Shown in pieces: positions 48,567-53,309 of a stretch of DNA of 64,000 nucleotides. Numbering within the stretch: the stretch's first letter is position 1; each line of letters starts with the position of its first letter. This DNA is from Candidatus Zixiibacteriota bacterium. Lineage in GTDB: Bacteria; Zixibacteria; MSB-5A5; GN15; FEB-12. Where the stretch lies: positions 107,979-171,978 of the forward strand of contig JACZXB010000002.1 in the NCBI GenBank assembly GCA_022571845.1. The letters are read 5' to 3'. Under the pieces are notes generated by a model that did no database searches, was not told the origin of the DNA, and saw nothing but the letters and a program-made list of their open reading frames with translations. Both the position numbers and the translations under genes were made by a program.

Positions 48567-49397
48567 ATGCGTTTTTTGTCAAAACATATTCTGCTTATTA
48601 TTGTCGCTTCACTCTATTTCTGTGCCTGCGCCACCACCGGTCCCGGCGGTAAAAAATCGCTGATAATTATTCCTACTTCACAGGAAGTTGCTATCGGCTC
48701 AGGCATGGCCGAAGAGGTGGCCAGAACAGAAAAAACCCTGGCCGACAGCGTCTGGCAAAACTATTTGAACGAAGTCGGCCAAAGAATTGTCTTAGTCTCT
48801 GACCGCAAAGACATTAAATATCACTTTACAGTTATCGAGTCAGATCAGATAAATGCTTTTGCGGCGCCCGGTGGTTATGTCTATTTCTATACCGGACTGC
48901 TCAGGGAAATGAATTCAGAGGCAGAAATGGCGGCAGTTATGGCTCATGAAATCTCCCACGTAGTAGCCAGGCACGGTATCAAGCGGGTGCAGCAGGCCTT
49001 GGGTGTTCAGTTAGCCTATGCTTTGGTCTTCGGAGGTGACGATGCCGGTGCGGCCGTGAACGCCGGAATCGGTCTGGGGATGGGTTTACTTTTTGCAGGC
49101 TATTCCCGCGGGGCCGAAAGGGAAGCCGACCAGTATGGCATTCATTATATGATAAAGGCTGGCTATGACCCGGCCGGAGCAATAGACATGTTTGAAACTC
49201 TGGGCAGACTGGGCGGAGAAAGATCAGGAAATGTTTTTGAGAAACTGGTCAGCTCTCACCCTGAAACACAGGAAAGAATTGCCAACACCAAAAGCCAAAT
49301 CAGTAAACGGCAGCCGCTGCCAAAACATCTAAGTTTGGGTAAAGAGAAATATCAGCTTATGCTGAAGCGTCTGCCGCCGAAACATGACGGCAACTAG
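48567..49397 (+). CDS. M48 family metallopeptidase, exported or lipoprotein
   Basis: A 276-residue zinc protease. The HExxH motif is in MAHEISHVVARHG (about residue 129) and the third ligand in SRGAEREADQYGIHYM. A hydrophobic N-terminus ends in YFCACATTGPGG, which may be a lipobox but fits the rule poorly. The layout (VVSPxxE-type N-terminus, short C-terminus without TPR) resembles LoiP/YcaL-like periplasmic quality-control proteases. Its stop overlaps that of the convergent DUF2156 gene. Confidence 0.9.
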   Translation: MRFLSKHILLIIVASLYFCACATTGPGGKKSLIIIPTSQEVAIGSGMAEEVARTEKTLADSVWQNYLNEVGQRIVLVSDRKDIKYHFTVIESDQINAFAAPGGYVYFYTGLLREMNSEAEMAAVMAHEISHVVARHGIKRVQQALGVQLAYALVFGGDDAGAAVNAGIGLGMGLLFAGYSRGAEREADQYGIHYMIKAGYDPAGAIDMFETLGRLGGERSGNVFEKLVSSHPETQERIANTKSQISKRQPLPKHLSLGKEKYQLMLKRLPPKHDGN

Positions 49398-50458
49398 CTA
49401 ATAGTGTCTTCTCGAACATTTCGTTTAAAGACAGGCGGCAGCCATCTGCCGGTTGTTAACCGGTAAATTTTGAGAAGTTCTGCAAAGGGCAGTTTCTTCT
49501 TGCTGGCAAAGTAAACCGCCTTTTCGATGCCCCGGAATCTACTCTTGTGAAATGACAAGCCCTTATAATTAAACGAGAAATCAGCATACTTGTAAATCAT
49601 CTGGAACAACGTTGCGGTCTCTCGGCAGTTGCAGAAGGTGCTGTGGTCATAATTTTCTTTGACCTTATGAAAAGGCGAGAGGCCCAGGCTGACAACTTTG
49701 ATGCCCTCGGACTCAAACTGCCTGATGGCACCGAGCAGAATGCCCACCCGGGTTCCTTTGGGAGCAGCCGGATTTCGCTTGGGAACAACTTCGCTGTACC
49801 CAAAAACTTTTCCATCGTCGTACATAGGGAAAAACAATGATGTTCCGACAAGTTTGTTATTATCAAATCCTGCAAATATTCTGGAGCCTGTTACTTGCTC
49901 AGTAAGGCTGCTGACAGCCAGAAATTTCAATTCTCCTGAAAATCTGATAGCTCCCTTAGTCAGTCCTGCAAAAGTAGAGCGTAGCCAGTTGTCTGTTAGA
50001 TGAGAGACTTCGAGCTCCCTAATTTTTAGCCCCGCTCTTTCTGAGCAGTTTTGCAGATGCCTGATATCGCAGCGGCCAGCGCCTTTCAGCAGGTACGGCA
50101 GCTCCAGGAGTGTTTCGATACCCAGCGGAGTCAGATAATATCCAAGCGATTTCAAAATCAGGGCAGTCTTCTTTGAACATTGCACAAAACTGCTGAGCGG
50201 ATATTCGGACAGAAAAGCTTTTAGGATTTCTTCAAATCTACCTTCGGCAATAACGGGATCACCAATGACAAATCTGTTTTTTCCAAGTTTTTGATAAGCA
50301 ATATAGCCCGATTCATCTAACCGAAAATGGGTCATATCATTATGCAGGGTTTGTCCCGCACAGGGGAAATTGCCAAAGTTCATAAAATTGACCACAGCCG
50401 ACTCTGAACTCTCAACTACAATCCTCTTAGAAACAATATTTGCAAGTTCGGTAGGCAT
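49394..50458 (-). CDS. DUF2156 (phosphatidylglycerol lysyltransferase-like) protein
   Basis: A 354-residue soluble protein of two GNAT-like halves. YIAYQKLGKNRFVIGDPVIAEGRFEEILKAFL and the C-terminal FSFNYKGLSFHKSRFRG match the catalytic domain of MprF-like aminoacyl-lipid synthases (DUF2156) without the membrane flippase domain. Such stand-alone domains can modify lipids or act on other acceptors. It is divergent from the sugar transferase gene; the 232-base gap holds a sigma54-type site. Confidence 0.82.
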   Translation of the reverse strand: MPTELANIVSKRIVVESSESAVVNFMNFGNFPCAGQTLHNDMTHFRLDESGYIAYQKLGKNRFVIGDPVIAEGRFEEILKAFLSEYPLSSFVQCSKKTALILKSLGYYLTPLGIETLLELPYLLKGAGRCDIRHLQNCSERAGLKIRELEVSHLTDNWLRSTFAGLTKGAIRFSGELKFLAVSSLTEQVTGSRIFAGFDNNKLVGTSLFFPMYDDGKVFGYSEVVPKRNPAAPKGTRVGILLGAIRQFESEGIKVVSLGLSPFHKVKENYDHSTFCNCRETATLFQMIYKYADFSFNYKGLSFHKSRFRGIEKAVYFASKKKLPFAELLKIYRLTTGRWLPPVFKRNVREDTIS

Positions 50459-50592
50459 CCCTTAATTAAACATTGCTGCGGAGATTGTCCAGTTAGATAT
50501 GGTGAATTCAGCTGCCAGAGAAGCAGCCGCAAATATGCAGCTATATCGCAAGAAAATAGCCATTTTATTGACAAATATTTGCAGAATGCATT

Positions 50593-50608
50593 TGGCTCGA
50601 AACTTGCC
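50593..50608 (+). promoter_or_regulatory. Sigma54-type -24/-12 promoter, sugar transferase
   Basis: TGGCTCG-AAAC-TTGC matches the TGGCACG-N4-TTGC consensus with one mismatch and correct spacing of the GG and GC doublets. It points at the sugar transferase gene, whose ATG is about 83 bases downstream. Confidence 0.6.
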
Positions 50609-50690
50609 GTTGTCGCACATAGAGTTACGGGAGCAAAATAGCCGAAAACCGGGCAGTTTTCTTGCTCGATATGATTAAGCATAAATACAT

Positions 50691-51599
50691 ATGAGTATAC
50701 TTATGAATTTAGTTAGAGAAGACAACACCTTACTTGATGAACTGGAAAGAATCAGTTCCAGACAGGCAATCCCTGCCTGCAGGGCATCTGTTACCTTGAC
50801 ATTTAAAAACAGAAAAGATTACTTTGGCCATGGGAATTCTCTTGATATGGTAACAGGTGAAGAGATAACTGACTCAGCCAATCCAGCTGCTTCAGCGGAC
50901 AGTATTACTACTTCTTTGGATAAAGCGGGTTCGAGAATAATAAAAAGACTGTTCGATATTGTTGGCGCTATTTCAGGTATCATAATAACTCTGCCCCTGT
51001 GGCTGATCATCACAGTTTTAATAAAGATAGACTCTCAGGGTCCTGTTTTTTACTGTCAGACCAGAGTAGGCAAAAACCGCAGAAGAGACAGAAGACGGAC
51101 GAGCTCCGAAGACAGCGTGGGTAACAGCCGCAGCAGAGAGCGTCGCCGTGATAATTATTTCGGCCGGACATTTAAATTATTCAAGTTTCGGACTATGATC
51201 CATGATGCCGAAAGAGAGTCAGGTCCGGTCTGGGCAAAACCGAATGACAAAAGAGTCACCAGATTCGGAGCATTGTTAAGAAAAATGCGGCTTGATGAAC
51301 TACCACAACTTCTAAACGTTTTGTCAGGCGAAATGTCTTTGGTCGGTCCCAGACCTGAACGGCCTACATTTGTAACTGATCTGACTGACAGAATCGATGA
51401 CTACTCTCTGAGGCTGATAGTCAAGCCGGGAATTACGGGACTGGCTCAGGTAAAAGGCGGCTACGATTCAACTGAAACAACAGTTACCAGAAAACTCGGT
51501 TATGACCTGAACTACATCAGGACCTGGTCAATTTGGCTGGACATTGTAATACTTTTTAAGACTGTCAAAGTTGTTCTTACCGGAAAAGGTGCGCACTAA
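50691..51599 (+). CDS. Polyprenyl-phosphate sugar-1-phosphate transferase
   Basis: A 302-residue initiating glycosyltransferase of the bacterial sugar transferase family (WbaP/PssY type), which loads the first sugar phosphate on the C55 carrier for exopolysaccharide or O-antigen. A soluble N-terminus of about 80 residues leads to KRLFDIVGAISGIIITLPLW and one membrane hairpin. The catalytic part has FKLFKFRTMIHDAE, KMRLDELPQLLNVLSGEMSLVGPRPE and KPGITGLAQVKG. An Arg/Ser-rich insert (RRRDRRRTSSEDSVGNSRSR) of about 30 residues follows RVGKN. Confidence 0.92.
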   Translation: MSILMNLVREDNTLLDELERISSRQAIPACRASVTLTFKNRKDYFGHGNSLDMVTGEEITDSANPAASADSITTSLDKAGSRIIKRLFDIVGAISGIIITLPLWLIITVLIKIDSQGPVFYCQTRVGKNRRRDRRRTSSEDSVGNSRSRERRRDNYFGRTFKLFKFRTMIHDAERESGPVWAKPNDKRVTRFGALLRKMRLDELPQLLNVLSGEMSLVGPRPERPTFVTDLTDRIDDYSLRLIVKPGITGLAQVKGGYDSTETTVTRKLGYDLNYIRTWSIWLDIVILFKTVKVVLTGKGAH

Positions 51600-51875
51600 T
51601 ATTCAACTTTCTTCATCTTTCAACTAAGATTCTTAGACAAGCAAAATGACAATCATCCGCTATGGGCGGAACTAGATTTGTTCATTCCATTTTGAAACAT
51701 TTGCTGTAGTTCTTCTGTTTCTGTTTCGTTTTTTGTTTTACAACTGCAAAATAATTCAACTTTGTGCAAGCGGGTTTCATAGCTGAAATAATTCATTTAT
51801 TGTGCACTCAGGCTCTTAACAAACCGCCATTTTCACCGACATAATTCAATACATAGATAATTAAAAATTGGTAAT
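51600..51875. other. AT-rich spacer before the NtrC-family gene
   Basis: 276 bases with many T-runs and no ORF, palindrome or tRNA. I see no confident promoter. Confidence 0.4.
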
Positions 51876-53309
51876 ATGAAAAAGATACTATTAGTAGACG
51901 ACGACAAAAGTCTTTCTCGTTCTTTGGCTAATCTGTTCGATTCTCAAGATTTCAATTTTGATTTTCTTGAAGACGGCAGCGAAGTCAAAAAAATCATCGC
52001 AGGCAATTCCAAGTATGACCTGGTTATGCTTGATGTGAATTTGCCAACCATGTCCGGTCTGGAAGTTTTAAAGGAAATTAAGAAAGTAAACAAAAGTATC
52101 CCGGTCATAGTTATCAGCGGTTTCGTTTCTACTGAAAATGCCATACAGGCAATTCGGGAAGGCGCTTTTGAATATCTGACCAAGCCTTTCGAATTAAAGA
52201 AGCTGGTGGCTACGGTCAACAGAGCCTGCGGCTTAACTGCACAGCCGGCCGAAGCTCCGGCAGTTGCCCATACCAATCAGGTTTCTTCCAAGACAATCGG
52301 GGAAATGATTGGTAAAGCTCCTGAGATAGTGGAAATCGCCAAAATGGTCGGGCAGCTTTCCAAGAGCAATGCACCTGTACTAATAGTCGGTGAGCAGGGC
52401 ACAGGCAAAGAACTTGTAGCCAGAGCCATCCATCGCAATTCTCTGCTGAGTTCTAATCAGTTCTTGTCGATTAACTGTGCATCGATGCCGGAATCTCTTT
52501 TGGAATCTGAGCTCTTTGGTCATGAAAAGGGAGCATTTACCGGCGCCTATTATAAGCGAATCGGTAAAATTGAACAGGCCAATCAGGGAACTCTCTTTTT
52601 AGCGGATATAGGCAAGGCCTCGATGCTGACACAGTCAAAACTCTTGCGAGTACTTCAGGAAGGCAAGTTTGAACGCGTCGGCGGAGAAGAAAGCATAGAC
52701 GTCGACACCCGTCTAATTGTTTCTTCATCCGGTTCACTGGTGGAAGCAATGAAAGAAGGTTCGTTTAGAGTAGATCTTTTTTACAAGCTCAAAGTAGCTT
52801 CGATTTATATCCCGCCTCTGCGCGACAGGCGCAACGATATTCCGCTATTAGTAGATCACTTTTTAGAAAAGTTTTCAGGCAAAGAATTAGATAATCCCAA
52901 AAGGATTTCCAAAGAAGCAATGCAGTATCTATCTGGTTATGACTGGCCGGGAAACATTCGCGAACTGGAAAACAATGTTCAGAGTGCAGTCATGATGGGT
53001 CGCAGCAATATACTGACTCTCGAGGATTTCCCTGCTTACACCGAGAGGAATACTACCAACGGCAAGAAAACTCTGGAAATCAAAAGCGATTATACTGATT
53101 CTTTCAAGAATATTATCGAGCCGGTAATGCCAAAATTAATCTTAAATTCGCCGGGACAGATATATCAGTTCCTTGAATCAGCTTTCGAACGTGCTATCAT
53201 ATCGTCATGTCTCAAGCTTTTTAACGGCAATCAGGTAAAGACATCTGAGTCTCTCGGTATTTCCCGCAATACACTCAGAGACAGAATTTCCCGTTACGAT
53301 CTCTACTAA
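51876..53309 (+). CDS. NtrC-family sigma54-dependent response regulator, atypical Walker B
   Basis: A 477-residue regulator. The receiver domain (residues 1-120) has Asp53 in LVMLDVNLP and YLTKPFE. The AAA+ domain (about 150-380) has Walker A GEQGTGKE and an intact GAFTGA sigma54-contact loop, with FRVDLFYKL and DWPGNIRELENNV. Walker B, normally FLDEIG, reads FLADIGKA, and the sensor-I AATN is SSSG, so ATPase activity is doubtful. A Fis-type HTH ends it (SLGISRNTLRDRISRY). It lies downstream of the sugar transferase gene. Confidence 0.93.
   Translation: MKKILLVDDDKSLSRSLANLFDSQDFNFDFLEDGSEVKKIIAGNSKYDLVMLDVNLPTMSGLEVLKEIKKVNKSIPVIVISGFVSTENAIQAIREGAFEYLTKPFELKKLVATVNRACGLTAQPAEAPAVAHTNQVSSKTIGEMIGKAPEIVEIAKMVGQLSKSNAPVLIVGEQGTGKELVARAIHRNSLLSSNQFLSINCASMPESLLESELFGHEKGAFTGAYYKRIGKIEQANQGTLFLADIGKASMLTQSKLLRVLQEGKFERVGGEESIDVDTRLIVSSSGSLVEAMKEGSFRVDLFYKLKVASIYIPPLRDRRNDIPLLVDHFLEKFSGKELDNPKRISKEAMQYLSGYDWPGNIRELENNVQSAVMMGRSNILTLEDFPAYTERNTTNGKKTLEIKSDYTDSFKNIIEPVMPKLILNSPGQIYQFLESAFERAIISSCLKLFNGNQVKTSESLGISRNTLRDRISRYDLY

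Follow-up and report, generated by a model that had tools for sequence, protein, structure and literature searches.

The locus

By the window we mean the whole stretch of 64,000 nucleotides analysed here, which belongs to a 2.75 Mb Zixibacteria MAG. It contains, at 50691-51599 on the forward strand, a gene whose product matches the bacterial sugar transferase family PF02397 (Bac_transf domain, 218.5 bits) and TIGR03025 (301 bits, cut-off 295.55), in agreement with the identity originally given to it. Its true start may be the ATG at 50703, since this codon is common to all four congeners while the ATG at 50691 is not (it is GTG in G001). In this genus the first ~80 residues of the protein (50691-50930) look unrelated to those of the rest of the family, whose N-termini carry an extra hydrophobic, probably membrane, segment. 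On the minus strand a divergent gene at 49394-50458, encoding a phosphatidylglycerol lysyltransferase C-terminal domain (LPG_synthase_C, PF09924), bounds an intergenic region of 232 bp.

The next gene downstream, at 51876-53309 (+), had been taken for a member of the NtrC family, and this is correct. Its product, our proposed activator, is a response regulator with all the parts of an NtrC-family enhancer-binding protein: a PF00072 receiver, a PF00158 AAA+ sigma54-interaction domain with GAFTGA, and a Fis-type HTH (PF02954). GAFTGA is found in 30/30 orthologues, which also hardly vary in their recognition-helix region, GNQVKTSE-LGISRNTLRDRI, as expected if the DNA site described below is conserved. 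More specific names had to be abandoned. The suggestion that the regulator is of the PrsR type fails on TIGR02915 (371.1 bits, cut-off 502.6), and it also scores below the cut-offs of the NtrC equivalog (TIGR01818, 426.5 bits against 558.6) and of NtrX (327 bits against 600). The genome also has the sigma factor that the original prediction needs: rpoN is present in one intact copy, a 478-aa open frame with the RpoN box ARRTVTKYRE and a DNA-binding domain recognized at E=3.1e-59.

Among relatives the gene order is transferase, PEGA/DUF5683, fn3, a gene of about 280 aa, activator and often a metallophosphoesterase, and the activator orthologues in this cluster are about 55-67% identical across the order. 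For the three intervening genes Wza, Wzc and a kinase were considered and rejected, as Pfam gives PEGA/DUF5683, fn3 and no match. A cluster of PEGA and fibronectin-III genes is not a typical exopolysaccharide set, and the idea of an exopolysaccharide cluster is not supported. All three genes are missing from the window between transferase and activator (51600-51875); a search of the four genomes of the window's genus did not find the PEGA/DUF5683 and 280-aa genes, and fn3 is absent from the locus. Two relatives (L125:4899-8388 and L129:8972-12427) have a further NtrC-type regulator inserted into the cluster beside a ~700-aa protein, which in L125 is a histidine kinase according to Pfam. It is possible that these proteins are partners of the activator.

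A perfect consensus match

The original prediction placed a sigma54 promoter at the sequence TGGCTCGAAACTTGC, which we call element 1. It lies at 50593-50607 (+), is a perfect match to TGGCNCG-N4-TTGC, has its doublets (GG at 50594-50595, GC at 50606-50607) the proper 10 nt apart for a -24/-12 promoter, and ends 83 nt before the ATG at 50691, all as described. It is the sole exact match in the window, where Markov shuffling gives an expectation of 0.18, so its presence is mildly unusual. In the whole genome the exact pattern has 3 matches, where uniform base composition would give about 5; besides element 1 these are two matches within open reading frames. The motif is real, but this exact consensus has no genome-wide enrichment. 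With one mismatch allowed there are 153 matches genome-wide against 57 for a reversed control.

Predicted promoters upstream of the transferase in relatives

We searched 80 relatives and found a transferase match in 79. A strict TGGC[AT]-N5-[TC]TTGC site occurs upstream of the transferase orthologue in 56 of 78 distinct sequences spanning family, order and class, a count that takes in element 1 itself in two congeners; among the 22 loci without one are two paralogues and a few that are truncated at a contig end. About a dozen further loci differ only at -26, with C, A or G for T. The commonest form, TGGCA-N5-TTTGCT, precedes the first ATG by 50-85 nt in most cases, and across 304 kb of neighbourhoods strict sites hardly occur except at the transferase gene. 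A matrix was built from 51 distinct sites, none of them from the window's genus. Its invariance at positions of the search pattern is by construction, but columns free of the pattern are also near-invariant (A at -22 in 51/51, T at -16 in 50/51, T at -11 in 50/51). These comparisons point to a sigma54-type promoter conserved upstream of the transferase across relatives, and sigma54 control of the gene is likely.

In the window this matrix does not choose element 1. The top score of all 127,954 window positions, 10.7, belongs to GGGCAGTTTTCTTGCT at 50651-50666 (+), 58 bases downstream of element 1. This site, element 2, also has the 10 nt doublet spacing (GG at 50652-50653, GC at 50664-50665), and its start of transcription is predicted at about 50677. 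In the alignment of the four congeners it falls within the longest run of near-invariant intergenic positions, and its core is essentially invariant, differing solely at -26 (T in G002, giving TGGCA). Conservation upstream of the orthologues is seen for element 2 and its equivalents in the family but not for element 1, and we regard element 2 as most likely the sigma54 promoter. The part of the original prediction that stands is the type of promoter ahead of the transferase; the site itself would move to 50651-50666.

Three observations count against element 2. The -26 T is replaced by G in 3 of the 4 species of the genus, although GGGCA is found among the variant loci of relatives as well. 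Its distance to transferase residue 82, 284 nt, is below the 300-400 nt or so of the family, into which the 341 nt of element 1 fits. Moreover, this genus departs from its relatives in three cluster genes, in the gene upstream and in the N-terminus of the transferase, so that its promoter region is not simply orthologous to theirs.

An upstream palindrome

An unbiased count of dyads upstream of the relatives' promoters yielded GCAA-N4-TTGC. It is exact in 31 of 51 non-redundant loci, while none of the other 256 palindromes counted is exact in more than 5, and only a gap of 4 gives this result. The exact copies centre at about -199 to -217 from the predicted start, and 44/51 loci have a copy with at most one mismatch at -220 to -195. 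The spacer letters vary among species while the palindrome itself is kept. A weaker proximal group at -75 to -110 is found in 10/51 loci (the controls have a mean of 0.8, with one control equally high), and no relative among the 51 has a dyad at -60 to -35. As a composite, dyad plus promoter occurs in 47 of 147 genomes, at about 50 places that are mostly before the transferase; the reversed pattern occurs 3 times in all.

The window carries a degenerate copy of this putative enhancer, ACAA-N4-TTGC, at 50571-50582. Its arms are conserved and its spacer variable in the four congeners. Relative to the predicted starts, its centre is at about -100 for element 2 but only -42 for element 1. The imperfect dyad, and the lack of a copy at -200 in this genus, count against the explanation that we favour.

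A possible mechanism and its alternatives

We consider it quite probable that element 2, and not element 1, is the working sigma54 promoter, served by an NtrC-type activator at the upstream dyad. Sigma54 RNA polymerase would bind element 2 and start near 50677, 26 nt ahead of the conserved ATG at 50703. The phosphorylated product of 51876-53309 would bind the palindrome at 50571-50582 and open the promoter via ATP hydrolysis. Promoter, dyad, gene order and activator are conserved in the sequences compared; we infer from this that the dyad may be the cognate site of the activator and that transferase and activator genes may be co-transcribed. Since the activator gene lies after the transferase gene here, and at a distal position of the same-strand cluster in relatives, the circuit may be autoregulatory.

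If instead element 1 is the working promoter, alone or in tandem with element 2, its perfect textbook consensus, its doublet spacing and its position relative to residue 82 are accounted for. Its -12 TTGC is kept in the four congeners, and in G001 it reaches a matrix score of 8.1. We nevertheless think this unlikely. In the window its score is -4.2 (rank 136 of 127,954), and at -11 it has C, where 50/51 relatives have T. Five of its 17 columns vary across the four congeners, and its -24 half, which reads TGGCTCG, TGGCACT, TAGCCCC and TGGTCCT in the alignment of the four, decays within the genus: the -25 G becomes A in G003 and the -23 C becomes T in G002. Further, its start would be no more than 42 bp from the dyad, a range in which none of the 51 relatives has one. 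Hence element 1 is most likely a lookalike, either by chance or as a secondary promoter, and the coordinates originally claimed for the promoter are probably those of the lookalike. A third and very improbable scenario is that this genus uses neither site, its promoter having decayed as the neighbouring cluster genes were lost, and that expression of the transferase depends on a housekeeping promoter or on read-through; the missing PEGA/DUF5683 and 280-aa genes, the changed transferase N-terminus and the imperfect dyad would agree with it, but element 2 lies in the most constrained intergenic stretch of the four species and the intergenic DNA ahead of the transferase showed no sigma70-like site.

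Comparison with known systems

Similar arrangements are known. The syp polysaccharide locus of Vibrio fischeri is activated by SypG, an NtrC-family regulator acting on sigma54 promoters via upstream sites (PMC10162802), and resembles the circuit proposed here in joining sigma54 with an NtrC-type regulator. However, the reported SypG site TTCTCANNNTGMDWN differs from GCAA-N4-TTGC, and the Zixibacteria locus usually has a single exact dyad, some 200 bp upstream, in front of a short cluster that lacks the syp gene set. The site of LuxO, another bacterial enhancer-binding protein, is TTGCAWWWTGCAA (PMC10162802); it shares the TTGC and GCAA half-sites, but in the opposite order and with different spacing. 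In the PEP-CTERM system of PrsK/PrsR, an NtrC-like regulator goes with a conserved upstream motif and a -24/-12 sigma54 motif, some 70 nt ahead of the start codon (PMC1569441). There motif 1 ends in TTTACA, about 63 nt from the promoter motif, and the motif is reported only from Proteobacteria (PMC1569441), while the Zixibacteria regulator, as noted, falls short of PrsR. NtrX, also of the NtrC family, recognizes CAAN2-5TTG (PMC9223101). GCAA-N4-TTGC contains CAA-N4-TTG; in Zixibacteria the gap and the outer G/C are fixed.

A search of the literature for work on both Zixibacteria and sigma-54 gave no result. It is tempting to suggest an apparently dedicated sigma54 circuit throughout the class. 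It would rest on one activator subfamily and one type of enhancer, GCAA-N4-TTGC at roughly 200 bp upstream, and in each genome would have essentially a single operon as its target, with genes for the activator as well as for a sugar transferase and for PEGA and fibronectin-III proteins; in the genus of the window it would have been rewired and become shorter. We would put the case for such a circuit on a par with the case against it. The locus offers a testable promoter, enhancer and activator for bacteria known here only from metagenome assemblies. It also illustrates how a perfect match to the textbook consensus can be a lookalike, while a site next to it is better conserved in spite of deviating from the consensus at -26.

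Other candidate targets

The lineage-specific matrix can now be used for scanning Zixibacteria genomes. In the present one the lineage-type pattern TGGCA-N5-YTTGCW has 10 matches and its reversed control has 1. Four of the 10 lie in intergenic DNA at 19-62 nt from the start of a gene downstream, among them sites ahead of an FHA-GAF gene and a polysaccharide-export gene. The expectation that such promoters would be found at envelope genes is therefore borne out in part, by the second of these. The site ahead of the FHA-GAF protein gene, TGGCAGTAGATTTGCT at L077:1501 (G000:C5), is 62 nt before it, and the gene is likely a sigma54 target. The other, TGGCATTCTCCTTGCT at L224:7432 (G000:C7, minus strand), lies 49 nt before the polysaccharide export (SLBB/Poly_export) gene and is a probable second sigma54 promoter, with no GCAA-N4-TTGC upstream of it. 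The four congeners share this site unchanged, and several other genera have variants of it. The polysaccharide-export cluster at this site also holds a second sugar transferase.
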